NCBI GenBank assembly: GCA_031273045.1
Contig: JAISSQ010000244.1
Coordinates: 1-44,055, forward strand
Origin: Puniceicoccales bacterium
Lineage (GTDB): Bacteria > Verrucomicrobiota > Verrucomicrobiia > Opitutales > UBA953
Direction: 5' to 3'
Length of the DNA: 44,055 nucleotides
The translations under genes and the position numbers were made by a program. The notes under the pieces are model-generated. The model worked only from the letters and a program-made list of their open reading frames with translations, was not told the DNA's origin and did no database searches. Below are positions 12,784 through 29,047 of this stretch, piece by piece (the stretch's first letter is position 1; each line of letters opens with the position of its first letter).

Positions 12784-13640
12784 TCAGAACCGGATGCGGA
12801 AGGAGGCGTTGAAGCGGTGGATTGTGAGGGAGCCGAAGTCGGTCTCGTAGGTGTAGCCGATGTTGAGGGACTTGTTGCCGCCGAAGGTGAGTTCGACGCG
12901 CGGACCGGCTTGGAGGGTGTGCTCGGGCAGGGCGGGCGCGGTGATGCGGAAGGAGTTGCCGGAGGTGTCGTTCGCGAAGCGCGCGGTGATGGAGGCGTCG
13001 GTGTCGAGCATTTCGACGGTGTAGGCGACCTCGCAACCGAGGCGCAGGACGGCGCCGCTCCACGGGTTGATGAGCCAATTCAGACCGCTGCCGATGCGGA
13101 TTTGGAGCGAGTCCTGCGTGATTTCGTCGAGGTGCATGGCGGCGGCGGAACCCTTCTCGGAGAAGTTGCTGACGGTTGCGGAGACGTAGTCGAAGCCGGC
13201 GAAGGGCGTGAAACTGATGAATTTCGGGAGTGGGATGACGCTGCCGACGTAGAGGCCGGCACCGATGTCGGTGCCTTCGGGCTTCGCCGTCTTGCCGCCG
13301 AAGACGTCGTGTCCGCGCGTCTCGTAGGAGGAGTATCCGCCGTGGAACTGGGCGTCGAAGAAGAGCCAGTTGCTGGCGCGCAGGGAGGCGTAGAGCGTTC
13401 CGCGAATGTTTTCGCTGGTCGCCTTGTCGCCGTTGGAACCGCTGTGGAAGCGGGCGCGGGCGTTGTTGTAGCCGACGTTCGCGCCGAGGGTGAAGTGGGT
13501 GCCAAGGTCGGAGTCGAAGCCGACGAGCGCGCCGTAGGAGTCGATGTCGAACGCGGGGTCGTTCGCGCCCGGATTTTCGTATTTGGCGTAGGCACCGGTG
13601 CCGACGATGTAGGGTGCCCAGTTGATGGTGGTGTTCTGGA
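12784..13640 (-). other. Autotransporter beta-domain portion of the giant protein
   Basis: WAPYIVGTGAYAKYENPG...DIDSYGALVGFDSDLGTHFTLGANVGYN...FRIRF, alternating amphipathic strands with C-terminal Phe. Confidence 0.85.
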
Positions 13641-16600
13641 CGCCGCGTTCGTAGCGCAGGGCTTCGAGGTGCTCGCGCAGCGAGGAAGCCGCGTCGTGCG
13701 CGGCGGAGATGCTCATCGTCGGCAGTGCGGCATGCATGCTGGGGACGGTGGACTTGAACGCCTCGCCGGCGGTGCTGGCGTCGCTGCCGAGCAATTGGTA
13801 GATGGTCTCGCGGGCGGCGGCGGCACCCGGATTGGAGGACTTCAGGACGGTGTTGAGGTAGCGGGTGAAGTCGGAGAGCGAGTCGGGCAGGTCGAAGCCG
13901 GGGACGTCGCTCAGGTCGTCGGCGAAGATGACGGCGACGCCGTTGCCGGTCTTGTAGAAGAAGAACTTGCCGATGATTCCGAGGGCTTCGAGTTCGTTGT
14001 AGTTGCCGATGGTGTAGTTGCCGGCGATGGAGGGTTTGCCGTCAGCGGTGTTGTCATCAATGAAGAGTTCGAAGGTGGTGCCGGTGGCGGGCAGGTTGGT
14101 GTCGGCGGAGCCGAGTTCGGAGAAGTCGAGCGAGATGGTGGCGCCGGGCTCGAAGGTGACTGTGCCCGTGTAGTGGACGGCGTCGGAGATGTAGCCGCTG
14201 TCCGAGTAGTGCGTGGGGGTGGAGTAGGTGACCTTGAAGCCGACGTCGCCGGCGGTGGTGATGTCGCCGTTGACGGTGATTTTCCCGACGGGCGTTGTGT
14301 TGGAGAAGACGCTGGCACCGGCGGCGACGACGAGGTTGCCCGCGACGGTTCCCTGACCGGAGAGCAGGGAGTTGCGCGCGAGCGAGATGGTCTTTACGCG
14401 GATGAGCGTGTCCGCCTCGGCACCCAGCGAGAGGGACGCCCACGACTGGACTTCGAGCACGTTGAGCGAGGAGGAGGAGCCGCCGGCGACGAATTCGTAG
14501 GCGGCGTAGGCGCCGGCGAGCACGGTCTCGTTCGGGGCGAGCGAGATGATGCCGGTGCCGCGAATGCTGTCGCCGATTTGGAACGCGGGCGTGGTCACGC
14601 CGGCCTGAACGGGGACGGCGCCGTGGCGCAGTTCGAGCACGCCGGAGCCGGTGGCTTCGAGGTAGGCGTAGCCGTTGGTGTCGTAGGTGGCGGGGTCGCG
14701 CAGCGGCAGCGGCAGGTTCGCGGTGTCAATGATGAGGCGGCCTTCCTCGACGATGGTGCCGCCGGTGTGCTCCGAGACGCTGTCGAAGACGATTTCGCCC
14801 GGACCGCGTTTGACGATGTTGCCCTGTCCTTTGACGGTGACCTTGGAACCGGTGGTGACGCCGGTGCCGTCGCGGTTGAAGATGAGTTCGGCGTTGCGGA
14901 AGAGGAAGACCTCGACGGGGTTGATTTCGACGGCGTTGATGGCGCCGGAGTGGCCGCCGGAGCCGATTTGCAGTTTGGCGACATTGGCGGCGCTGGTGTC
15001 GCCGGTGTTGTTGCCGACGTAGATGTGGCCGGCGATGGCGTTGCTCTCGGTGAGCGTGACGAGGCCGCGCTCGACGGTGAGGAACGCGCCGGAGTCGGCG
15101 GTGATTTTCGACGAGACGACGGTGCCCAGCGCGTCGCCCGCCACGTAGGGTTTGCTGAAGCGGAAGTGGCCGCCGTTGTTGATTTGGATTTGCGCGCCGC
15201 CGGCGATGGTGCCCTTCGCGTCGCTGCCGTTGCCGAGTTGGAGAATGCCGGAGTTGACGACGATTGTGCCGTTGATGGAGATGTCGCCGGTGATGATGGC
15301 GAGCGAGGAGGGCGAGGTGCCGTTGACGGTGATGCTGGCGCCGACGCCGGAGACGTTCGCGCCGAGGTCGAGGTAGTGGTCGCGCGGTTCGGTGCCGGCG
15401 GGGGCGTCGCCCGGAACGAGGCGCAGTTCGCTGTTGGTGACGACGATGTTCGAGGCGGAGTAGGTCTTGGTGCGGGTCATCTCGGAGCCGTCCCAGATTT
15501 GGAACACGCCGTTCGAGATGTTGGTGATGCCGGTGGAGAGGTTGTCGCCGGTGAAGATGAGGCGACCCGGGTCGAGTTTCTGCAGTTCGCCGTCGCCGCT
15601 GATTTTGTTGGCGATGGTGTAGGTGCTGTCCCCGCAGTCGAAGATGAGCGCGCGGTTGTGCTCGCCGCCGTTGTCGTCGTCGCTGCCGAAGCGGATTTCG
15701 GCGTCGCCGAGAACGTTTCCGCCGTTGAGCACGTTCTGTCCGTCGCCGATGCGGATGGAGCCGTTGAGGATTTGGACGGTGCCGTGGATTTCGGGGTTCT
15801 CGGTGGTGAAGACGAGGGCGTTGGTGTTGTCCTTCGCGATGGTGCCGTAGGAGAGAATCTTGTAGTCGAAGATTTGTTTTTCGACGCGGTCGCCGTTGAA
15901 GAGCAGGGTGCCGTTTTGCTCAATCACGACGTCGTAGCCGCCGTTGGGCAGGGCGCCGACGGCGTATTGGGTGAAGGTGGTCGGGTTCGCGAAGGCGTCG
16001 AAAACGCCCGGATTGACGGCGTTCTCGTAGGTGCCGGCGACGATGACCGGCTTGGGCGCGTCGGTGCCGGTGTCAATCGAGTAGATGCTTCCGTCCGCCG
16101 CGTTGACTTGGACGCCGGTGACGCCGCGGTAGTTGCCGCCGCCGTCGGCATAGACGCCGAACGCCTTGACGCGTCCGATTGAACCTTCGGCGAGACCGGA
16201 GCCGACTTGGAGGGTGCCGTTGCGGATGATGGTGCCGCCGGTGTAGGCGTTGCGCTCGGAGCCGAGTTTGAGCGCGATGTTCGCGGTGGAGTCGTCAATG
16301 ACGAGGGAGATCTTCGCGCCCGCCGCACCGTCGGTGATGTAGCCGTAAAAGACGCCGGCGGCGGTGGCACCGGTGGTCGAGACGCCGTCCTTGCCGACGA
16401 CGAGTTGGATGGCGCCCGGAACGTCGCTGCTCACGACGGGGGTGTTCGGTCCGGCGGCGGTGCCGGAAGCGCCGCCCGCGAGCGAGCCGATGCGCACGGC
16501 GCCGCCGAGGGTTCCGGCGGCTTTGTAGCGGTCGAACACGGTTTCGCCGACGGTGCCGTTGCGGTCGAGGTCAATCTTGAGGGTCGTCCTGTCGGCGAGG

Positions 16601-19600
16601 GAGAAGTTGGCGGAGCCGAAGTTGGCGATGATGACGCCGCCGATTGTGGCGGTCTTATAGTTCGTCACCGTCTCTCCGTTTTCATCGGTATAAACGGACA
16701 TCACCACCGGCAGTCCGTTGTTCTCGGAGTGGGCGTTCTTGTTCTTCTTCGCGCGGAGGAGTTTCTCGAACGCGCTGTCCCAAACGGGACCGAGCCAGAC
16801 CTTGCCGTCCTCGGAGACGGCGCTGGCGGAGCGGACGATGACTTCGTCGTCCATCTTCGCGATTTGGGTCGCCGCGCCGTATTGCGTCGGGTCGAGCGCG
16901 GCGGCGGAGCCGAGGGCGGGCAGGCGGGCGATTTGGTCACCGGTGGCGCCGATGGCGACGCTGCCGGAGTCAACGCGGATGGTTCCCTCGAAGCGGCTCA
17001 CGTCGTCGCTCTCGTCGCCGGTGGCGTAGTTGCCTTCCTGCGTGAGGCGGGTGTTGGCGGCGAGGAAGAGCGTGTCGGTGTATCCGAGCGAGGGGTCGTT
17101 GTGGGTGGTGCCGTCCTTGATGAGGGTTCCGCGGTCGCCGCTGCCGGTGCTGTAGAGCAGACCGGTGATGCGCATGTCGCCGCCGGAGGTGTCGAAGGTG
17201 CCGGTGCCGCCGGAGAAAAAGTTGAAATCGTAGTCGAGGTAGCGCGGTGTGCCGGAGATGAGGGTGCCGCCGTAGAAGTCCACGCGGCCGGCGCGGACGT
17301 TGACGTCGGAGGAGGTGTCGCGCCGGCGGTTGAGGCCGAGGGCGAGGTCGGTTCCGAGGTAGATTGTGCCGTCGTAGATGATTGTGCCGCCGGCGTATTC
17401 GTTGTCGGCGAGCAGGTTGAGGACACCGGTGCCGCTCTTGACGAGGTAGCCGGTGGAGCCGCTCATGGGGCCGCTGTCGGCGGTGATGGTGTAGTCGCGC
17501 CCGATGCTGTTGTCGAAGCGCGCCTCGCCGAGGGTGACGCCTTCGGGGACGATTGTGACGAGGCGGCGCAGCGGGTCGCTGACTTGGTCGTCAAAGATGG
17601 CGGTGTCTCCGGGCGCGTAGGAGGTCTTTCCGACGCGCGAGATGGTGCCGTCGGGGTTCACGACCTCTTGGAAGAAGTTGGCACCGGTGGAGGCGGGGTC
17701 GCCCCACTGCTGGTTGGGGTCGCCGACCCAGTAGAGTTCGTTGCCGTAGGCGGTGGCATAGACGTCCATGTAAATCATCTTCCCGGCGGCGTCGTCGCGG
17801 AAGAGGATGGTGTAGCGCGGGTCGGTGAACTTGGACTGGTCCCAGCGGAACTCGACGAAGGAGTTGAGGATGGCGAGGCGTTCGGCGGCGTCGGCGGCGT
17901 CGGCGAATCCGTCCACATAGAGGGTGTTGTATTTGATGACTGGGTAGGAGACGGGAGTGTCGCCGGTGCCTTTTGCGAGGCGGTATCCGGCGCGCTCGTC
18001 GTCGCTGGATGGCATTACGGGGGAGATGATGAGTTCGCCGCCGATGGAGAGGTTTGTGACGACGAGGAGGTCGTTGGTCTGCGGGATGCGGGCGATGAGG
18101 GTTTCGCGGAGGGCGATTTCATCAGAGGTGAGCGTCGCGGGGTCGCGGGCGAGGAACTGCCGCTCGTCATAGGTGAGCGTGGAGGAGTTGAGGTTGGGGT
18201 CAACGGTCGAGGCGAAGGTGAACAGGATGGTCGAGGACGGGACGCCGACTTCGGTGCCGGCGGCGTTCTTGACGGAGGCGACGGTGGAGAGGGTGCCGTC
18301 AATGGTGAGCGTGGCGGCGCGGTCCACGACGATAATTTGGTTTCCGACGGGTTCGCCGGTGTAGGAGTCAATGATTGGCTCGGTGCCTTGGGAGCCGCCG
18401 ATATACAGGACGCCGCCCTGCAACTGGAAGTCGCCGATGAGGTCGGGCAGGGCGTCGTAAACGCCGGTGGTGAGGGTTCTGCCGGCGACGAGCGTGGAGC
18501 GGTTCAGGTAGTCCTCGCCGGAGATGGTGAAGTATTTCGGCGAGGCGGTGCCGCCGGCGTTGGAGCGCAGCAGGGAGACGTCGAGCACGGGGCGGTTCAC
18601 CTCGGAGACGGGCGCGTTCAGCCCCGGGTCAACGAAGATGTATTCGGACAGGAGCGAGGTGACGCGGCCGCCGAGGCGCAGGGTGCCTTCCTTGACGAGG
18701 GTGTTGCCGGTGTGCACGTCGCGTCCGCTCAACGTGAGGGTGCCGCCGCCGGTCTTGGCGAGGGTGAACTGGGAGAGCGATTTGCTGGCGGAGTAGGGGT
18801 CTCCGATGGAACCGGAGAAGGAGCGGTCGGCATTGCGGACGATGTTGAAGGTGAGGACGGAGTAGTTCTGCGGGTCTTCGACGAGCGGGCCGCCGTTGAC
18901 GATGCGGTTGAGGACGGCGGTGGTGGGGTCGGTGTCGAGCACCTCGAAGTTGCTCAACGTCTGGTTGATGCCGGTGGATGTGCCGAGGGAGAGGATGCCG
19001 TAGGGTTTGCGACCGGTTTCGGGGTCAACCGCGCTGGCACCAAAGACGATTTTGGAGGCGGAGTGGATGGCGTCGGTGATGGCGAGGCGCAACGTTCCTT
19101 CAACGAGCAGGGTGTCGCCGGTGTAAGTGTTCTTGGCGCCGAGAATCCATTCGCCGGTGCCGGTCTTTTTGAGCGTGGTGCGCTTGCGTCCGGTGGAGTC
19201 CGGCGGGTTCGGGAGGATGAAGCCGAGGATGTTCGAGTTGGTGTAACTCGTGGTTTTGCGGTCGCCGGTGAGTTCGAGGGTGACGGTCTGGACCGCCGAA
19301 CTCAGGTCAATCTGGATGATGAAGTTTTGTCCGGCGGGAGAGGTGAACTGCAGACCGCCGCCGGAGGTGACGGGGCGTCCGGGGTTCGAGTAGGAACTTT
19401 CGATAATCGCGCCGCCGTCGCCGATGGTGAAAAGGCGTTGGAAGACGGAATTGTTGACCGTCACCGTCCCGGACGGTTCGTAGGTGCTTTTGAGGCGGGC
19501 ACCGCCGGAGATGTAGAGTTTGCTGGCTTGACCGTCATTGCCCGGGGTCGGGTCGCCCAGAACGCCGGAGGTGGCTGTATAGGTGAGCGGCGCGGTGAGG

Positions 19601-22600
19601 ATGAGGGTGCCGGCAAGGATGCGCGTGGCACCGGTGTAGTTGCTGGCGGCACCGCCGAGGGTGAACTCGCCAAGACCGGTCTTCACGATGGAGATGTTCG
19701 CGTCGTAGGCGCCAGTATCTATCGGGTTGATGATGTTGTAGCCCTCCGTGACGGCGACGCCGGAGGTATTGGTGTCCCGCAGGTCGCGCGCCTCATCGTA
19801 GATTTCCTCGTTCACGCCGAGGAAGGCGGTGCCGAAATTGGTGAGGCGGCCGATGGTTCCGCTGAAGATGTTGTAGTTTTCCTTTCCTTCCGGCCAATCG
19901 GGGATGGTGGTTGTCGCGGGGTCGCTGTCGTAGAGCGCGATGTCGAGGTAGAGGGTGCCGGTGATGGAGTTTTCCGTGCCGGCGATGTCGCTCATGTCGG
20001 CGTGATACGTCGTGTGGGCGTGCGCGATGTGGCTGTAGGAGTCGCCGGAGAGGAAGTGCAGGGTCTGGCGGGTGCCGTCCACGAGGGTCAGCGCGCCGGC
20101 GGAGAGGGTCAGCGCGGTGGATTGCGCGCCGCGCGTGGCAAGTTGCTCGGCGGAGAGCGGGGTGCTGGCGTAGTGCTGCAACGGCTTCGCCTGCGGGATG
20201 ATGTTCGTGACCGCGACGGCGTCCTTCGCGCGCAAAATCAGGTTGCCGTATTGGCGGACGCGGATGCCGCCGGGGACGTCGAGGGTCTTCACGCCGTTCT
20301 GACCGGCGGTGTCTTGGTCGTTGGCGTGGATATAGACGAACGCGCCGTCAATGATGAGTTGCCCGGAACCGTCGGTGTAAGTGCCGTCCGAGTTCTTCTG
20401 GCTGGCGGAGAGTTGGATGACCGGCGCCGCGCCGCGAAACACGAAGAGCGAGGAGGGGGCGTTGCCGTTGCCGAAGGACTCGGAGGTGTCCACGAAGGCG
20501 TCGTCCGGCAGGTTGTTTCTCGGCACCGTGTCCACGCGCCGGATGGTGAGGTCGCCAAGACCGGTGACGCGCACGATTTCCATGTTCGCGTAGGCACCGA
20601 TGGTCGCCGAGCCGAGGAGGCGGACATCGCTCACTCGAGGCAGATTCTCGGCGAGGTAAATGTCGGCACCGTCCTCCACCAAATACTCCAAATCAAGGAG
20701 ACCGAGGACGGTGAAGTCGTTGAGGTAGCCGGCACCGAGCAGGTTGGAGAGCGCGCCCGCCTTCTCCGTGCGCTCGCGGACGCGCGACCCGGCATTATTC
20801 ATGCCATAAACGTCAATGCTCACGCCGTCGCCTTTGATTTCGATGGGGGCCGTGATGTCGTTATTGCGGATGTCGAAGGTGCTGCCGGCGGCGGTGGAAG
20901 TGCCGGAGGAAGAGGGGCGGACGGTGATTCGGCTGGTGCTGCCGACGGGGTTTGTCGAATTGCCAAGCAGCGAGACGCGCCCTTGCTCGACAAGCAACTG
21001 CCCGTCGAAATTCGAGCCGTCTTCGAGTTCGAGGTAGAACGCGCCGGTGCCGGTCTTGAGGACGCCTATTTTCGCGCCGTTGGTGTTGGACAGCGTGCCG
21101 TAAAAGTAGAAATTCCGCGTCCCCTCGCCGAGGGTCAGCCAACTGGATGTCTCCGCCGCCGGCTCGTCGCCGCCACCGCCGGCACTGATGTTGTCATAGA
21201 CGGTGCCGCCGCCGATGAGCGCGTTCATCGAAACGCTCGTGCCGTTGATGTTCAGTTCGGCACCCGTCGCGACGGAAACATAGGAGGACGCCTTGCTCGT
21301 GCCGTGCGGAATGGCCTCCGTGTTGTCCACGACCACGCGCCCTTGGCTGATGAGAAGCGGACCGTTGAAGGAGTTCGCGCCGGCGAGGACGAGCACGCCG
21401 TAGCCGGTCTTGGTGACGCCGGCGGTCGAAGAGGTCGAGGGGGTGATGGAGCCGTTGATGATGAACGCCATCGTGTCGGTCTCACCGTTCCAGATTGAGG
21501 CGCCGCCCATCCGGTCCTCGGGAATGGCGTTCAGCGTCGGCGAGACGCGCAGCGTCAGCGAGACGTTTCCAAGCAGGATGCCGCGATTGGCGTGCAGCGA
21601 GACGTGCGTGTCCTGATACGTGATGCCGTTGAACTTCACGTTCGACAGGACGGGCGCAGAGGAGGAGCCGGTGCTGGACGTGGGGGTGTTGACGTAGATG
21701 TTGTCCGCATCCACTTCCGACGGCTCGGCACCGAGCGACCGGTCACCGGCAATGCCGAGGAAGCCGGATTCGAGGCGCGTGCCGCCGCTGAACGTGTTGT
21801 TCGCCTCATTCAGGAACCATGCGCCGGTGCCGGTGGACGCGCCGTTGACGGTGCCGGGGAAGAGCGTGTTGTTGTCCAATGTCGCGCTCTTGATGAGGGT
21901 CAGCACCCCGTTTTCGGGGTCATTCAGGGTGAGCGAGAGAATGCCGCCTTCGATGTTGCCGGACTGGAACGTCGCATAACCGACACTGCCGGCGTTCTGA
22001 CCGGCGGCACCATAAAGGTAAATCTCACGGTTGCCGCTGCCGGCGAACTCAACAGCGCGGTCCTTGTTCGAGAACCACACACGACCGTCCGCGATTTCCA
22101 GATAGTATTTCTGCACACCGGCGGCGTCGCCCGACGAACCGGGCAAGCCGAGCGTGAAGTTGCGGTTCGTCATGATGTTCACCGACGGCACCGACGCCAC
22201 CGGCGTGTCGAGCGGTGTGCCGGTGGTGAAATCCTGCGCGCTCTGGCGGATGCGCAGGCGCGTGCCGCTCGCCAGAACAAGCCAGTCCGAGGGAGCGGTG
22301 GCGGCGGCGGCGTTGATTTCCGCCTGCGTCGCGGTGTCGGCAAGCAGGGCGACACCACCGGTGCCGAGTGCCGAGGGCTGCCCGAAATTCGTCAGCAACG
22401 GGCGGATGCGCACTTCGGCTCCGGGATCGTTCCAGTCCGCGGGAACGGGGCTGCCCTCGGCGTCCAGCGCGCCAATCCATTCGCCCGGAACGCCGCCGTC
22501 GTCGAGGTCGAGTGTGTTTTTCTCAACGATTGTTTTGCCGGTGAAGGTGTGCGCGCCGGAGATTTGCAGAATGCCGGAGTCGGTTTTGCGAATGCCGGCG

Positions 22601-25600
22601 ACACCGGCGATGCGCCCGTTGTAGTAATTCTGGCTGTAACGGTAGTCAAAGACGCCGTCGGGCTCGTTCTCCCCCACATCCGCCGTGCCGTCGGTGTATT
22701 CGATGGTGAGATTGAGTTTTGACGGCGTGATTTGCGTGACGCCTTCGGAGCCGGTGATGGTGATTTGGCGCGGCTTGACCTCGCCGCTGACGTTGGCGAC
22801 CACCGAGGAACCGTTGGTCTGGAAAATCACCGAGTCGTAGTTGTAGAAGCCGTCGTAAATGGGGGTGCCGGTGACGGAATTCAGCCCCGCCGTGTTGTCC
22901 TGCCAGAAGAGGTCGCCGTCGGTTTCCTCAACGCGCCAGAGTTGCGGCGTCTCGTTGCGCCAGACGAGTTCGTGGTTGCCGGGACCGTTCACCGCAAGGG
23001 AGACGGTTTTCTGCGCGGCACTGTAGGCGAGCGAAAGCGAGGTGATGCCGCGCGGGGTCTCCTCCGACGAAAGGGTCTGACTCTCGTAACCGGCAACGGT
23101 GGTGACGACGCCGGTCAGGGTGTCGGTGTAGGAGAACGTGAGCCGCTGCAGCACGGTGTTGGTGGAGCCGGCGGTGGCGGCGTCGTCGAGCGTCGAAGTG
23201 CTCCAAGTCAGCACGGGGAACGAGACGGTGCCGCCAACCTCCGCCGCGCCGGGGACGCCGCTGGGGAAGGCAAAGTCGAGGTTCAGCGCGCCGGCGGCGT
23301 CGGGCACGACGAGGTTGCGCACGAGCAGGTAGCCGTGGCGGGCGAGGCGGACGTCGTTGTCGTCAACCTCCACCGCCGGCGCGTTCACAGCGAAGCGCAA
23401 CGAGCCGCCGGGGACCGCCACCGCGCCGTCGGTCACGAGCGTCTCGCCGGCACCGCGAATGGTCAGCGTGCCGTCAATGGCGAGTCCGTAGCGCGAGGAC
23501 GAGGTGGTGTCGCCGACGGCGAGCAGGTGGTTGTTCGACAGGGCGATGTCGCCGTAAATGGTCGGTTCATCGAGGGAGACGGTTCCGCCGTCCGCGAGCA
23601 GGACTCCGGCGCGCGAGACGTAGTCCTCGTTGTTGCGACCGGTGAGGGCGGGCGAATTGTCCACGCGCAGTTCGAGCGTGTGCGTCGCGTCCTCGGCGTA
23701 GCGCAGGTCGAGTTGTCCGCCCGACTCGATGACGAGCGAGGAGGTCTGCGGGCGGATGAAGCCGCGCAACGGGGTGTAGGTGGTCGTGACGCCGGCAGCG
23801 TCAGTGCCGCTGATGGCGTCCGAGACGTTCAAGATGCTCGTTTGGGTCGTCACGGTGACCGCGCCGGGGTCTTCCTCCGTCCCTGCCGGTGTCCTGACTT
23901 CGACCTGATAGAGGGCGGTCTCCGGCGTGAGCGCGACGTAGCCGGTCTGCGGGTTCGCCCCGGTGATTTCCGAAGGCAGAATCAGCGGCGCGCCAAAAAT
24001 CAGCGTGCCCAGCGCGACGGTGGTGCGTCCGGTGTAGGACGCCGAGGCGAGCGCGAACTGCCCCAGTCCCTGCTTGGTGAAATTGCCCGCGCCGAAAACG
24101 TCCTGCCGGAAGTATTCGACGACGTTCATGTAGGCGGGCAGCGGCGGGTCGGCGAGCGACGCGATGGACGCGGGCTCGGTGCCCCATTTCGCGAAGAAGT
24201 CCTCGCGGTGGATTTCGAGCGTGGCGTTCGCGCGCACCTCGAACGATTTCAGGTTGTCGCCAAGGTCAACGCCGTCGGTGAGTTTGAGCGTGCCGGACTG
24301 GACGACGGTGCCGCCTTTGTAGTCGAGATTGCCGCCGAGGGTGAGCACGCCGTCGCCGGTTTTGACGAGGTTGAGCAGGCCGTCAATGCGCCCGCTGTAT
24401 TCGCTGTTCACGCCGGCGTAGGAGCCGTCGGAAAGCAGACGCGAACTGTTGATGGTGAGGGTGACGAGGGCGTCCTGCAGGAGCGGGTCGGTGGTCTCGT
24501 AGTAGATGCGCCCGCTGCCGTTGCCGGAGAGCGGTCCGATGGCTTCGGAGTGGCCGTTCATGTTGAGGACGCCGCCATCGAGCGTCACCGGCGCGGTGTC
24601 GTAAATCTGGTCCTCGCCGCTGCCGGCGAGGATGACCGTGCTCGGACCGGAGGTGTCCGCGACGACGGTCAGTCCACCGGCACCGACGGCGTAGGTGTCC
24701 GTCTTGTTGAGCAGGACGGTGTTGCCGCCTTCGACGCGGATGCCGGCACCGAGGTTCGGCTCGGAGCCGAACAACTCCACGGTGTAGGGCGCGCTCGTCG
24801 TCTGGCGCGTGAAGCGGAGCACGCCGCCGGCACCGATGATGTCGGCGGTGCCGCCCGTCCCGTAGGCGTCACCGGCGGCGGTAACGGGCACGCCGCTGTA
24901 GAAGATGCCGTTGACGGTGCCGCTCATCGCGGTCGCCTCCGGCAGGACGAGCGAGACGACGCGCTCAATCGAGTAGGTGACGGCGGCGGTGCCGGAACCG
25001 CCCGGCGCGTTGAACGTGGCGACGCCGGAGGCGGGAACGTTGATGGTCAGACCGTGGCGCAGTTGTTCGGGGTCGCCGTCGGCGTTGGTCAGCGCGCGGT
25101 TCGCCGCCTTCTCGTTCTCGGTCAGGCCGAGGGTGTGCGAGTAGGCGTTGTAGTCGGTGCCGGTGTCGCGCGCGGGGTCGTAGGCGAGCGTGGCACCGGG
25201 GAAGAGGGAGAGGACGCGCCACTTCGCGGGGTCGCTGCCGGTGCTCGATGCGCCGAGCGAGGAGACGTTGCGCACGTCAATCTTGCCGGTGTCGGCGTTC
25301 GCGGGAGTGTTCGGATATTTGTAGGTGAGCCAGCCCTCACGCACGACGATGTCGCCGGTGAACGCGCTGTTGTCGCCGGTGAGCAGCGAGGGGTCGTCGT
25401 AGTGCCCGTCGGTCATGCCGGCGGGGTCGAGGCGTCCGGTGAGGATGAGGTTCGCGGAGCCGCGCTTGTAGAGGACGCCGTCGCCTTTGAGTGTCGCCGC
25501 GAGGGTGACGGTGCTGGTGGCGGCGCCTCGGAAAATGTCGAGCGCGGGGTGCGCGATGGCGTCGCCCAGAAGCAGGTGCCCGCTGGTTCCCGAAGAACCG

Positions 25601-26454
25601 CCGTTGCCGGTGACCGGTGCGTCGTCGCGCCACAGGGTGATGGTCTGCACGCCGGAGAGGTTGCCCTCGGTGCTGCCGGTGCCGACTTGCAGCGTCGCGC
25701 GCGGGAAAATCTCAATGCTGCCGGTGAAGCGCGAGGTGTCGCCGGTGAAAATCAGCCGGCTGAACGCGCCAATCCAGAACGTGGGCGGAGTGCCGCTCGT
25801 CGGTATCGGGTCGGCGCGAAACGCCAGACCGATGGAAAGGGTGTGGTCGCCAATGCCTTCCAACGAAACGAGCGAGCCGGAAATCGTGCCGATGTTGTTC
25901 GTGATATTGCCGCCGCCGACGCCGCTAATCGCCGTAATCCGCGCGTCCCCAAGCAGGGTCACGGTTCCGGTGACGGTGGCGTTGTTCGTGATTTGCAGCG
26001 CGCCGAAAATGCGGTCACCGGTGGCGGCGGTGCTCTCCACGTAGCCGTTGCCGAGAATGAAAAAATTGTTTCCCGCAACATCGCCGTCGCGGACAAGCGC
26101 CGTGGTTTCAGGGTTCACGCCGGCATAAACCAGCGAATCGTCCGCATAAAAATCGTAGCCCCAAATCTCGCGGTCATTGCCCCCGCTGGCAATCGTTCCG
26201 GTGACAACATGGGCTTCGGCGGGAATGGTGTGCGTGACACTCCACGGCGAGCCGTCGGAATTTGCGCCGGTAAGGGTAATCGTGTTGCCGGCGACGACGG
26301 CACCGGCGGCGCTCGGAGCAACGGGGAAAACACTGGCGGCGGCGGCACCAAGGCCGAGGGAGGCGGCGGCGGCGAGAAGGAGTTTGCGCGCGGGGCGGCG
26401 CGACGGGGTTTCCGGCTTGGCTTGGCGGGGGAAAACGAGGGAGGACTTTTTCAT
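12784..26454 (-). CDS. Giant autotransporter-associated beta-strand repeat protein (4556 aa) with C-terminal autotransporter beta-barrel
   Basis: Signal peptide (ARKLLLAAAASLGLGAAAASVFPVAPSAAGA); at least about a dozen PATR-type motifs (e.g. LTLGGNLDYKGGTVVQSGTLKL, LVLAGANSFNGPLLISQGRVVV, WILGAKNTYTGDTLLVEGTLRL, IVFDSVSEHTGGTIVEEGRLII); terminal barrel ending HRFNASFRIRF. Confidence 0.93.
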   Translation of the reverse strand: MKKSSLVFPRQAKPETPSRRPARKLLLAAAASLGLGAAAASVFPVAPSAAGAVVAGNTITLTGANSDGSPWSVTHTIPAEAHVVTGTIASGGNDREIWGYDFYADDSLVYAGVNPETTALVRDGDVAGNNFFILGNGYVESTAATGDRIFGALQITNNATVTGTVTLLGDARITAISGVGGGNITNNIGTISGSLVSLEGIGDHTLSIGLAFRADPIPTSGTPPTFWIGAFSRLIFTGDTSRFTGSIEIFPRATLQVGTGSTEGNLSGVQTITLWRDDAPVTGNGGSSGTSGHLLLGDAIAHPALDIFRGAATSTVTLAATLKGDGVLYKRGSANLILTGRLDPAGMTDGHYDDPSLLTGDNSAFTGDIVVREGWLTYKYPNTPANADTGKIDVRNVSSLGASSTGSDPAKWRVLSLFPGATLAYDPARDTGTDYNAYSHTLGLTENEKAANRALTNADGDPEQLRHGLTINVPASGVATFNAPGGSGTAAVTYSIERVVSLVLPEATAMSGTVNGIFYSGVPVTAAGDAYGTGGTADIIGAGGVLRFTRQTTSAPYTVELFGSEPNLGAGIRVEGGNTVLLNKTDTYAVGAGGLTVVADTSGPSTVILAGSGEDQIYDTAPVTLDGGVLNMNGHSEAIGPLSGNGSGRIYYETTDPLLQDALVTLTINSSRLLSDGSYAGVNSEYSGRIDGLLNLVKTGDGVLTLGGNLDYKGGTVVQSGTLKLTDGVDLGDNLKSFEVRANATLEIHREDFFAKWGTEPASIASLADPPLPAYMNVVEYFRQDVFGAGNFTKQGLGQFALASASYTGRTTVALGTLIFGAPLILPSEITGANPQTGYVALTPETALYQVEVRTPAGTEEDPGAVTVTTQTSILNVSDAISGTDAAGVTTTYTPLRGFIRPQTSSLVIESGGQLDLRYAEDATHTLELRVDNSPALTGRNNEDYVSRAGVLLADGGTVSLDEPTIYGDIALSNNHLLAVGDTTSSSRYGLAIDGTLTIRGAGETLVTDGAVAVPGGSLRFAVNAPAVEVDDNDVRLARHGYLLVRNLVVPDAAGALNLDFAFPSGVPGAAEVGGTVSFPVLTWSTSTLDDAATAGSTNTVLQRLTFSYTDTLTGVVTTVAGYESQTLSSEETPRGITSLSLAYSAAQKTVSLAVNGPGNHELVWRNETPQLWRVEETDGDLFWQDNTAGLNSVTGTPIYDGFYNYDSVIFQTNGSSVVANVSGEVKPRQITITGSEGVTQITPSKLNLTIEYTDGTADVGENEPDGVFDYRYSQNYYNGRIAGVAGIRKTDSGILQISGAHTFTGKTIVEKNTLDLDDGGVPGEWIGALDAEGSPVPADWNDPGAEVRIRPLLTNFGQPSALGTGGVALLADTATQAEINAAAATAPSDWLVLASGTRLRIRQSAQDFTTGTPLDTPVASVPSVNIMTNRNFTLGLPGSSGDAAGVQKYYLEIADGRVWFSNKDRAVEFAGSGNREIYLYGAAGQNAGSVGYATFQSGNIEGGILSLTLNDPENGVLTLIKSATLDNNTLFPGTVNGASTGTGAWFLNEANNTFSGGTRLESGFLGIAGDRSLGAEPSEVDADNIYVNTPTSSTGSSSAPVLSNVKFNGITYQDTHVSLHANRGILLGNVSLTLRVSPTLNAIPEDRMGGASIWNGETDTMAFIINGSITPSTSSTAGVTKTGYGVLVLAGANSFNGPLLISQGRVVVDNTEAIPHGTSKASSYVSVATGAELNINGTSVSMNALIGGGTVYDNISAGGGGDEPAAETSSWLTLGEGTRNFYFYGTLSNTNGAKIGVLKTGTGAFYLELEDGSNFDGQLLVEQGRVSLLGNSTNPVGSTSRITVRPSSSGTSTAAGSTFDIRNNDITAPIEIKGDGVSIDVYGMNNAGSRVRERTEKAGALSNLLGAGYLNDFTVLGLLDLEYLVEDGADIYLAENLPRVSDVRLLGSATIGAYANMEIVRVTGLGDLTIRRVDTVPRNNLPDDAFVDTSESFGNGNAPSSLFVFRGAAPVIQLSASQKNSDGTYTDGSGQLIIDGAFVYIHANDQDTAGQNGVKTLDVPGGIRVRQYGNLILRAKDAVAVTNIIPQAKPLQHYASTPLSAEQLATRGAQSTALTLSAGALTLVDGTRQTLHFLSGDSYSHIAHAHTTYHADMSDIAGTENSITGTLYLDIALYDSDPATTTIPDWPEGKENYNIFSGTIGRLTNFGTAFLGVNEEIYDEARDLRDTNTSGVAVTEGYNIINPIDTGAYDANISIVKTGLGEFTLGGAASNYTGATRILAGTLILTAPLTYTATSGVLGDPTPGNDGQASKLYISGGARLKSTYEPSGTVTVNNSVFQRLFTIGDGGAIIESSYSNPGRPVTSGGGLQFTSPAGQNFIIQIDLSSAVQTVTLELTGDRKTTSYTNSNILGFILPNPPDSTGRKRTTLKKTGTGEWILGAKNTYTGDTLLVEGTLRLAITDAIHSASKIVFGASAVDPETGRKPYGILSLGTSTGINQTLSNFEVLDTDPTTAVLNRIVNGGPLVEDPQNYSVLTFNIVRNADRSFSGSIGDPYSASKSLSQFTLAKTGGGTLTLSGRDVHTGNTLVKEGTLRLGGRVTSLLSEYIFVDPGLNAPVSEVNRPVLDVSLLRSNAGGTASPKYFTISGEDYLNRSTLVAGRTLTTGVYDALPDLIGDFQLQGGVLYIGGSQGTEPIIDSYTGEPVGNQIIVVDRAATLTIDGTLSTVASVKNAAGTEVGVPSSTILFTFASTVDPNLNSSTLTYDERQFLARDPATLTSDEIALRETLIARIPQTNDLLVVTNLSIGGELIISPVMPSSDDERAGYRLAKGTGDTPVSYPVIKYNTLYVDGFADAADAAERLAILNSFVEFRWDQSKFTDPRYTILFRDDAAGKMIYMDVYATAYGNELYWVGDPNQQWGDPASTGANFFQEVVNPDGTISRVGKTSYAPGDTAIFDDQVSDPLRRLVTIVPEGVTLGEARFDNSIGRDYTITADSGPMSGSTGYLVKSGTGVLNLLADNEYAGGTIIYDGTIYLGTDLALGLNRRRDTSSDVNVRAGRVDFYGGTLISGTPRYLDYDFNFFSGGTGTFDTSGGDMRITGLLYSTGSGDRGTLIKDGTTHNDPSLGYTDTLFLAANTRLTQEGNYATGDESDDVSRFEGTIRVDSGSVAIGATGDQIARLPALGSAAALDPTQYGAATQIAKMDDEVIVRSASAVSEDGKVWLGPVWDSAFEKLLRAKKNKNAHSENNGLPVVMSVYTDENGETVTNYKTATIGGVIIANFGSANFSLADRTTLKIDLDRNGTVGETVFDRYKAAGTLGGAVRIGSLAGGASGTAAGPNTPVVSSDVPGAIQLVVGKDGVSTTGATAAGVFYGYITDGAAGAKISLVIDDSTANIALKLGSERNAYTGGTIIRNGTLQVGSGLAEGSIGRVKAFGVYADGGGNYRGVTGVQVNAADGSIYSIDTGTDAPKPVIVAGTYENAVNPGVFDAFANPTTFTQYAVGALPNGGYDVVIEQNGTLLFNGDRVEKQIFDYKILSYGTIAKDNTNALVFTTENPEIHGTVQILNGSIRIGDGQNVLNGGNVLGDAEIRFGSDDDNGGEHNRALIFDCGDSTYTIANKISGDGELQKLDPGRLIFTGDNLSTGITNISNGVFQIWDGSEMTRTKTYSASNIVVTNSELRLVPGDAPAGTEPRDHYLDLGANVSGVGASITVNGTSPSSLAIITGDISINGTIVVNSGILQLGNGSDAKGTIAGGAQIQINNGGHFRFSKPYVAGDALGTVVSSKITADSGAFLTVERGLVTLTESNAIAGHIYVGNNTGDTSAANVAKLQIGSGGHSGAINAVEINPVEVFLFRNAELIFNRDGTGVTTGSKVTVKGQGNIVKRGPGEIVFDSVSEHTGGTIVEEGRLIIDTANLPLPLRDPATYDTNGYAYLEATGSGVLELRHGAVPVQAGVTTPAFQIGDSIRGTGIISLAPNETVLAGAYAAYEFVAGGSSSSLNVLEVQSWASLSLGAEADTLIRVKTISLARNSLLSGQGTVAGNLVVAAGASVFSNTTPVGKITVNGDITTAGDVGFKVTYSTPTHYSDSGYISDAVHYTGTVTFEPGATISLDFSELGSADTNLPATGTTFELFIDDNTADGKPSIAGNYTIGNYNELEALGIIGKFFFYKTGNGVAVIFADDLSDVPGFDLPDSLSDFTRYLNTVLKSSNPGAAAARETIYQLLGSDASTAGEAFKSTVPSMHAALPTMSISAAHDAASSLREHLEALRYERGVQNTTINWAPYIVGTGAYAKYENPGANDPAFDIDSYGALVGFDSDLGTHFTLGANVGYNNARARFHSGSNGDKATSENIRGTLYASLRASNWLFFDAQFHGGYSSYETRGHDVFGGKTAKPEGTDIGAGLYVGSVIPLPKFISFTPFAGFDYVSATVSNFSEKGSAAAMHLDEITQDSLQIRIGSGLNWLINPWSGAVLRLGCEVAYTVEMLDTDASITARFANDTSGNSFRITAPALPEHTLQAGPRVELTFGGNKSLNIGYTYETDFGSLTIHRFNASFRIRF

Positions 26455-26658: not shown

Positions 26659-27336
26659 CTACCGGCGCGCCCACAACTGCTCCAAGCGATAGTTGCTCCG
26701 TTGCGCCGGCAGGAAGAGGTGGAAAACGACATCAAAAGCGTCCACCACGCACCAGCCGCTCTCCGTCCGCCCGTCACTGCCCAAAACCACCTCCTCCATC
26801 TCCGCGAGTTCCCGCTCCAACGCCACGCGCAACGCCCGCAAGTGCGGCTCTGAAGTGCCCGTCGCAATCACCAGAAAATCCGTCACCGGCGACTTTCCGC
26901 GAACGTCCACCACGACAACGTCCTCCGCCTTCTTCTCGTCCAGTGCCCGCAGGCACCGCGAAACCAGCGGCGGATGCGCCACCTCCGGCGAAGGGCCAAC
27001 GGAGCGCGGCGACGAAGGGGCTGCCTTCTTCGGCGAAGCGTTAACGGAGCGCAGCGGAGTTAGCGACGCCGGCACCTTCGGCTCCGCCGCCGGTGCGGAC
27101 GAGGACGAAGCGCGCTTTGCCGCGCCACGCCGCTCGATGACGCCCGTGAGCAGGGACGTCCCCGCCGCGCGCCCGCGAACCTCCGAAACCGCCCGCGCCG
27201 CAATCTCCGCAAGCGTCGGCACCGCGCCGACACCACCGGCAATGCCACCGGCAGCGGCTTTTTGGGTAGCACTTTTGGGGGCGGATTTCGCGCTCGCGCT
27301 CGTCGCGGCGCGCTTTCGGGCTGGGGGGCGGCTCAT
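26659..27336 (-). CDS. rsfS: Ribosome silencing factor RsfS with long A/S/K-rich N-terminal extension
   Basis: LDEKKAEDVVVVDVRGKSPVTDFLVIATGTSEPHLRALRVALERELAE...GWCVVDAFDVVFHLFLPAQRSNYRLEQLWA. Confidence 0.9.
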   Translation of the reverse strand: MSRPPARKRAATSASAKSAPKSATQKAAAGGIAGGVGAVPTLAEIAARAVSEVRGRAAGTSLLTGVIERRGAAKRASSSSAPAAEPKVPASLTPLRSVNASPKKAAPSSPRSVGPSPEVAHPPLVSRCLRALDEKKAEDVVVVDVRGKSPVTDFLVIATGTSEPHLRALRVALERELAEMEEVVLGSDGRTESGWCVVDAFDVVFHLFLPAQRSNYRLEQLWARR

Positions 27337-28031
27337 GAGTAAAGGTTGCGCTGTTGAATGATTTTGCGGACGCCAGCGGGCAAGAACAATTCCAGCGACA
27401 GCCCGCGCCGCGCGCGCTCGCGCACCTCGGTCGAACTGATATCCACCCGCCGCTCCGGCAACCAAACCACCACCGGCGACACCGAACCGCTGCCGGCACC
27501 GCCACCGGCGGCACCGACGGCATCACCACCGGCGGTTATCCCTCCGTCCACTGCGGCGCAGCCGCCACTACTTCCCCATTCCCCATTCCCCATTCCCCAT
27601 TCCCCTTGGAGCGAAGCGGCTCTCCGCCCTGCCACCGCGAACCGCACCAACTTTGCGAGTTCCTCGGCGCGGTGCCACCGGTGCAGTTGCGCCGCTTGGT
27701 CGGCACCGACGAGCCAGAACAATTCCGCCTCCGGTCCGAACCGCCGGCGAAGATGGGTCGCCGTGTCGAACGAAAAACTCAGCCCGCCGCGCCGCACCTC
27801 GAAGTCCTCGACTTCGAGCCACGGGAACTCCGCCGCCGCCGCCCGCGCCAGTTCAAGCCGCGCCGCCGCCGGTGCCACCGCCTCGCGCCCTTTCAGCGGC
27901 GACGCCGCCGCCGGCACTAACAGCACCAAGTCCAGCGCAAGGTGCTCGCGCGCGTCCTGCGCCAGAAACAGGTGCCCCGCGTGCGGCGGGTCAAACGTCC
28001 CGCCCAAAATGCCCACGCGATGCGGATTCAT
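27333..28031 (-). CDS. nadD: Nicotinate-nucleotide adenylyltransferase
   Basis: MNPHRVGILGGTFDPPHAGHLFLAQDARE, WLVGADQAAQLHRWHRAEEL, RVDISSTEVRERARRGLSLELFLPAGVRKIIQQRNLY. Confidence 0.93.
   Translation of the reverse strand: MNPHRVGILGGTFDPPHAGHLFLAQDAREHLALDLVLLVPAAASPLKGREAVAPAAARLELARAAAAEFPWLEVEDFEVRRGGLSFSFDTATHLRRRFGPEAELFWLVGADQAAQLHRWHRAEELAKLVRFAVAGRRAASLQGEWGMGNGEWGSSGGCAAVDGGITAGGDAVGAAGGGAGSGSVSPVVVWLPERRVDISSTEVRERARRGLSLELFLPAGVRKIIQQRNLYS
27574..27601. repeat. Heptanucleotide tandem repeat (CCCCATT)x4 inside nadD
   Basis: Four perfect consecutive copies, followed by partial CCCCTTG; encodes GEWGMGNGEWG on the minus strand. Confidence 0.97.
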
Positions 28032-28840: not shown

Positions 28841-28928
28841 TGGTGGTGGGGGAGGGAGTCGAACCCCCGAAGCGCGGAGCGCGGCAGATTTACAGTCTGC
28901 ACCCTTTGACCATCTTGGTTACCCCACC
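28841..28928 (-). tRNA. tRNA-Tyr(GTA)
   Basis: Minus strand GGTGGGG acceptor, GACTGTAAATC anticodon region (GTA), long variable arm, TTCGACT T-loop, CCCCACC-A-CCA. Confidence 0.95.
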
Positions 28929-28993
28929 AGAGGACGTGCACACTGTCGCCCCGCCGCCACCGGCGCAAGGATTTTTTTCACGACGGCAGTCAA

Positions 28994-29047
28994 GGCGTGC
29001 AAGGCGGCAATCAGGGCGTGCAAGGCGGCAAGCAGGGCGTTCAAGCG
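28994..29047. repeat. 21-bp tandem repeat GGCGTGCAAGGCGGCAAKCAG, about 2.5 copies
   Basis: 28994-29014, 29015-29035, partial 29036-29047; one mismatch between the first two copies. Confidence 0.85.

Follow-up and report, generated by a model that had tools for sequence, protein, structure and literature searches.

The nadD gene of an uncultured, Opitutae-like member of the Verrucomicrobiota was found to contain an in-frame stretch of repeat-derived DNA, and this stretch is probably an incomplete copy of a modular repeat element that is dispersed over the genome and specific to the species, selfish and similar in behaviour to the Rickettsia palindromic elements (RPE); the copy would be translated and is probably neutral. 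The gene lies in a window of 44,055 nucleotides, by which the whole stretch of DNA analyzed is meant, belonging to a fragmented MAG of 3.12 Mb (247 contigs, 84% complete). The features recognized at the locus, in window positions, are the following.

27333..28031, minus strand: nadD, nicotinate-nucleotide adenylyltransferase, 232 aa, interrupted in frame; matches to TIGR00482, NF000840 and PF01467.
27466..27623, minus strand: the entire repeat-derived stretch, approximately residues 137-188 of NadD, with a net gain of about 35 codons by alignment with 33 NadDs.
27606..27623, plus strand: module T, TTGGAGCGAAGCGGCTCT, encoding RAASLQG in the nadD frame; copies genome-wide.
27571..27605, minus strand: heptamer array, a family A variant, (GGGGAAT)x~5 on the coding strand, from TRF and further copies of the family.
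27553..27565, no strand assigned: module H, a 13-base hairpin GCGGC-GCA-GCCGC folding into a small stem; exact copies genome-wide.
27466..27537 (about), no strand assigned: GC-rich CCGGCGG/CACCGG repeat part of frame-neutral units (repeat families D2 and D11), encoding the GGITAGGDAVGAAGGGAGSGSV stretch.

The ORF scored 148.5 bits with the curated equivalog profile TIGR00482 (cut-off 112.45) and 151.4 with NF000840 (cut-off 150). The motifs GGTFDPPHAGH and ISSTEVR were unbroken, in agreement with the catalytic patterns G-G-T-F-D-P-P-H-x-G-H and SSTxxR of NadD, and the invariant columns G10, G11, F13, D14, P15, H17, H20 and R204 were retained. An AlphaFold model (40 sequences) kept the NadD fold, with 168 residues of pLDDT >90, and the top Foldseek matches of this model were solved NadDs (TM about 0.85-0.9 on the target). 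A PF01467 profile search of the MAG (84% complete) gave nadD and one further member, so that nadD is the sole candidate found for the NadD step. A decaying pseudogene is very hard to reconcile with an open ORF, unbroken catalytic motifs and scores over the curated cut-offs. An assembly artefact might be suspected in so fragmented a MAG, the more so as tandem repeats may produce assembly errors (PMC6868369); this is equally improbable, since the array of about 35 bp fits within one read and identical modules occur in many contigs. In the window, rsfS (26662-27321) adjoins nadD and has an N-terminal low-complexity extension of about 120 residues with GGCGAAGCGTTAACGGAGCGCAGCGGAG-like repeats, probably more repeat-derived coding sequence.

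The insert stands in the loop between FAVAGRR and VVWLPERR. A preliminary description of this DNA had proposed, among its checks, an alignment with the NadDs of relatives and an AlphaFold model. For the alignment, 33 NadDs were compared, 29 of them from whole genomes of relatives and four from named Opitutae; seven belonged to the same genus (193-207 aa long) and the others to the same family or order or to the named Opitutae. All 33 lacked the insert, leaving an alignment gap of about 34-35 residues at its site, and no conserved, structured sequence common to the relatives was seen there, which bears out the earlier statement that typical NadDs do not have it. The relatives carry at this place a loop of 13-14 residues, which the insert stretch replaces; the net extra length is therefore about 35 aa, and the earlier figure of about 50 aa, although referring to a real insert, was overstated. 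Its limits of 27471-27620 marked the right place but fell slightly short, because module T (TTGGAGCGAAGCGGCTCT) reaches 27623. In the model, pLDDT was <50 at residues 152-179 and averaged 31-52 across residues 141-180, from which we infer a disordered loop that the fold would tolerate.

The sequence quoted in the preliminary description, with a heptamer tract and a second repeat type in the gene of an essential enzyme, was recovered exactly. The tract is a perfect one, (TTCCCCA)x4.9 with 100% match at 27572-27605 by TRF. Because 7 and 3 share no common factor, an array of 7-base units is read as one and the same heptapeptide whichever frame is used; in the nadD array this heptapeptide is GEWGMGN, and translation of the insert would yield peptides such as AASLQGEWGMGNGEWGSSGG. 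While the observation is confirmed, the interpretation as two repeats nested locally is only partly supported: the two repeat types are there, but together they form one copy of a modular family dispersed over the genome.

When the genome was searched with the DNA of the insert, numerous partial matches appeared. In a sample of 1.34 Mb, part of which was picked for having matches, the 15-base core of module T (GGAGCGNAGCGGCTC) had 13 exact copies against none in the reversed-sequence control, (NNTCCCC)x3 had 38 against none, and module H (GCGGCGNAGCCGC) had 112 against 12. With its perfect heptamer tract and this genome-wide enrichment of its modules over the reversed control, the nadD composite exceeds chance. 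The repeat is built of GCGGCGYAGCCGC, which forms a small hairpin, the spacer CACTNCTT, an array of heptamers (GCTCCCC, ATTCCCC or TGCCCTT/TATCCCT) and TTGGAGCGAAGCGGCTCT; at unrelated loci its parts stand in the order CCGGCGG-type part, GCGGCGCAGCCGC, ATTCCCC/GCTCCCC heptamers and TTGGAGCGAAGCGGCTCT. The nadD order of module H, heptamers and module T is the same as in these copies and can be aligned in hpnC, uvrA and others; nadD, hpnC (L208) and L215 all translate module T as RAASLQG. GC-rich repeats of period 9, 12 and 15 resembling the CCGGCGG/CACCGG part of nadD are likewise abundant across the genome.

Among the 1833 arrays of all short tandem kinds that TRF reported in the 1.34 Mb, about 149 were of period 7, nearly all belonging to four families: A (AGCGGGG/AATGGGG), B (AAAGGGC/AAGGGAT), C (ACCACTG/ACTGGCC) and D (AAGGATG). 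These families made up 104 clusters in the sample. Its unbiased part, 0.80 Mb long, had 48 clusters, a density of 6 per 100 kb or about 190 per genome; 16 of the 48 were in frame within genes. Many copies are two-armed, a heptamer array being followed by a partly conserved spacer and then by the same heptamer inverted, and the five that were folded gave z values of -4.7 to -7.5 against shuffles. The nadD copy has a single heptamer arm and folds no better than its shuffles (z = -1.06); since it amounts to half an element, unlike the two-armed copies, it could have another origin. Tandem arrays of other periods were also seen, such as those of period 14 with the unit CACATGGAGCGCCG at many places of the genome (e.g., L155:810-838 and L246:11307-11348) and, in the window, a 21-bp repeat x3 at 28984-29045 beside tRNA-Tyr (28841-28928).

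A rival reading of the insert is local slippage, by which the nadD loop would have grown in place from short GC-rich seeds as a microsatellite expands, with no copied element arriving. The richness of the genome in short tandem repeats and the different lengths of the arrays among loci agree with it. Slippage does not, however, put the same non-repetitive modules (TTGGAGCGAAGCGGCTCT, GCGGCGCAGCCGC and the inter-arm spacers) beside arrays at unrelated loci, and we regard it as an unlikely source of the insert, although it may set the number of heptamer units.

Arrival of a copied element is also what the state of the other loci points to. Frames there were called from codon usage, by a caller that was 86% correct on windows of its own training genes. 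An open frame common to both flanks enclosed 35 of the 101 scorable clusters, the value for random positions being about 50%. Seventeen clusters were initially classed as having a stop or frame change. One of these proved to be a second in-frame insert of uvrA; the others lay after a stop codon or between genes or were unclear, and no clear broken gene was found among them. Accordingly, about 36 clusters in the 1.34 Mb, approximately one third of all, lie within genes with the frame kept and no stop introduced. The sequences to the left and right of the insert showed homology in a single frame for GatA, UvrA (two inserts), HpnC, HpnE, a CzcA-type RND protein, MurF, ThrC, a TPP enzyme, an MFS protein, an SNF2 helicase and a GH127 protein. 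In-frame copies lie within, or between parts of, proteins of curated families, whose profile scores exceeded the cut-offs for GatA (525.5 bits vs 481), ThrC (237.8 vs 167), HpnC (281.9 vs 250), HpnE (300.6 vs 283) and the CzcA-type RND protein (853.9 vs 701). UvrA (L223:2-2995, C159 of the same genome) is alignable to 2r6f on both flanks of its two inserts, one of which, of about 60 aa, separates LSGGEAQR from LDEPTTGLH, the Walker B motif of the second ATPase.

Several very long or joined frames were noticed as well. HpnD-HpnE (L217:7190-9808) and NuoC-NuoD (L225:4996-6906) are single open frames across heptamer arrays, and insertion may have fused these neighbouring genes. The ORF L215:3-9323 holds a heptamer insert, and the window itself contains at 12784-26454 an ORF of 4556 aa with a C-terminal stretch resembling an autotransporter barrel.

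As the inserts lie within conserved enzymes, they might be removed or skipped by RNA splicing, ribosome bypassing or protein splicing and so never be translated; bypassed elements are known from some mitochondria. A skipped insert needs neither a frame nor a lack of stops, and the frame is kept: about 36 in-gene clusters are open and in frame, and no clear out-of-frame interrupted gene was met. With no Rfam intron match in the window in addition, skipping appears extremely improbable.

A functional role is also improbable, if somewhat less so. It could take the form of phase variation through gain or loss of 7-nt units, every such change shifting the frame because seven is not a multiple of three, or of a G-quadruplex in the nadD mRNA tuning translation. 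The (GGGGAAT)x~5 array on the coding strand matches the G4-run pattern of a predicted quadruplex, and comparable heptamers of the GGGNATC type are seen to fold into G4s in vitro (PMC4692102). Nevertheless, OFF variants should be lethal for an essential enzyme with a single candidate gene, in-gene copies occur in both orientations, some with a G-rich and some with a C-rich sense strand, and the genes concerned appear functionally unrelated.

Occupation of genes depends on the heptamer family. The family A units and AAAGGGC are free of stop codons on both strands, while TGA occurs on one strand of ACCACTG and AAGGATG and TAA on one strand of AAGGGAT; the variant ACTGGCC abolishes the stop of family C. 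Clusters lay in genes in 22 of 37 cases for families A and B, 12 of 40 for C and 1 of 24 for D (A/B vs D, Fisher p = 8e-6), a dependence that purifying selection on inserted repeats would give.

The 20-base heptamer probe CTCCCCGCTCCCCGCTCCCC matched 50 times in the own genome, five times in G024 and once in G012, both members of the family, and not at all in eight genomes of the same genus. A second 20-base probe, CAGTGGTCAGTGGTCAGTGG, had 85 matches in the own genome and none in 56 relatives, including the eight of the same genus; 13 of 388 genomes of the phylum were positive. Because the probes are abundant in the own genome and absent in its congeners, the proliferation of the heptamers looks recent and species-specific. 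Among 38 genomes, the module T core was present only in G000, G001, G003 and G005. The same-genus copies in G001, G003 and G005 were considered as possible instances of the same insertions and rejected, for they are mostly other, apparently intergenic palindromes without these heptamers and so give no evidence of shared insertion. Elsewhere in the phylum G337 and G375 are rich in heptamers; the former, of another family, has a different unit, (GGTGACT)n, with 184 matches to a 21-base pattern, a repeat that came to light through the reversed control pattern and suggests independent heptamer expansions within the Verrucomicrobiota.

The element that we propose would combine small hairpin modules with short arrays of 7-base tandem units, two of which are often inverted relative to each other and so make one large hairpin. 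A copy would have reached nadD at a surface loop after the split from the sister species, and would have survived there because its length kept the frame and family A heptamers lack stops in every frame on both strands. Translated as a disordered loop, it would affect NadD hardly or not at all. The spread of the element was probably selfish, by non-autonomous copying through transposition in trans or through template switching or gene conversion, with later selection clearing the copies that break genes. A search for the Y1/REP transposase (PF01797) gave no match in the MAG (84% complete), the control genomes being positive.

In behaviour the nearest known elements are the RPE, dispersed, non-autonomous inverted repeats of about 100-150 bp that are inserted into numerous unrelated protein genes with the frame kept and are translated as additional segments (PMC10969869). 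These 'protein-coding palindromes' share in-frame insertion in many unrelated genes with the present repeats. The host here belongs to another phylum, the arms are built of 7-base tandem units from several families where RPE have a unique palindrome, and the whole is a mosaic of exchangeable modules. As regards the stable palindromic stem-loop of RPE, the two-armed copies fold better than shuffles and the one-armed nadD copy does not.

In repeat unit the nearest are the GGGNATC heptamers of Xanthomonas and Nostoc and the TAACTGA repeats of Beggiatoaceae. The former have a period of 7, often at least four units, a genome-wide distribution and G4 compatibility, and are 89-93% intergenic in Xanthomonas and 68% between genes in Nostoc, so that about one third lie within genes in the latter (PMC4692102). 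The unit GGGGAAT of nadD is one base off the Nostoc GGGGA(C/T)T, but the units found here (GGGGAAT, GGGGAGC, AAGGGCA/AAGGGAT, AGTGGTC and AAGGATG) do not conform to GGGNATC or GGGGA(C/T)T. Nor are families A and B mainly intergenic, for about 60% of their clusters, and roughly a third of the clusters of all families, lie in frame within genes; several heptamer families are moreover joined with hairpin modules in inverted pairs. The TAACTGA units are genome-wide direct repeats of patchy taxonomic distribution (PMC4679880); they are mostly intergenic, just upstream of start codons, and consist of one stop-containing unit, whereas the in-gene units here are stop-free. REP/BIME, palindromes mobilized by RAYT, also form mosaics of short palindromic units scattered over a single genome, but REPs lie outside genes and are linked to Y1 transposases. 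MITEs are characterized by terminal inverted repeats and a target-site duplication; inverted heptamer arms were seen in many copies here. In a limited search of the literature, elements of this kind were not found reported for Verrucomicrobiota.

We suggest, as a tentative proposal, that these repeats form a class of selfish repeat not described before, in which the building block itself is adapted to coding DNA: stop-free heptamers with one peptide in all three frames would have let a hairpin element of 100-200 bp enter core genes repeatedly, with translated inserts in at least about 50 genes (nadD, gatA, uvrA and murF among them) of one uncultured Verrucomicrobiota species. Rickettsia is the best-known setting for selfish elements that enter core protein genes in frame, and the present case would add another lineage, unrelated to the first, in which the architecture differs. 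Annotators should be cautious not to take such inserts for domains. A rule that stop-free heptamers occur in genes and stop-bearing ones are kept out would make it a testable matter whether mobile repeats create new protein segments and what determines their tolerance.
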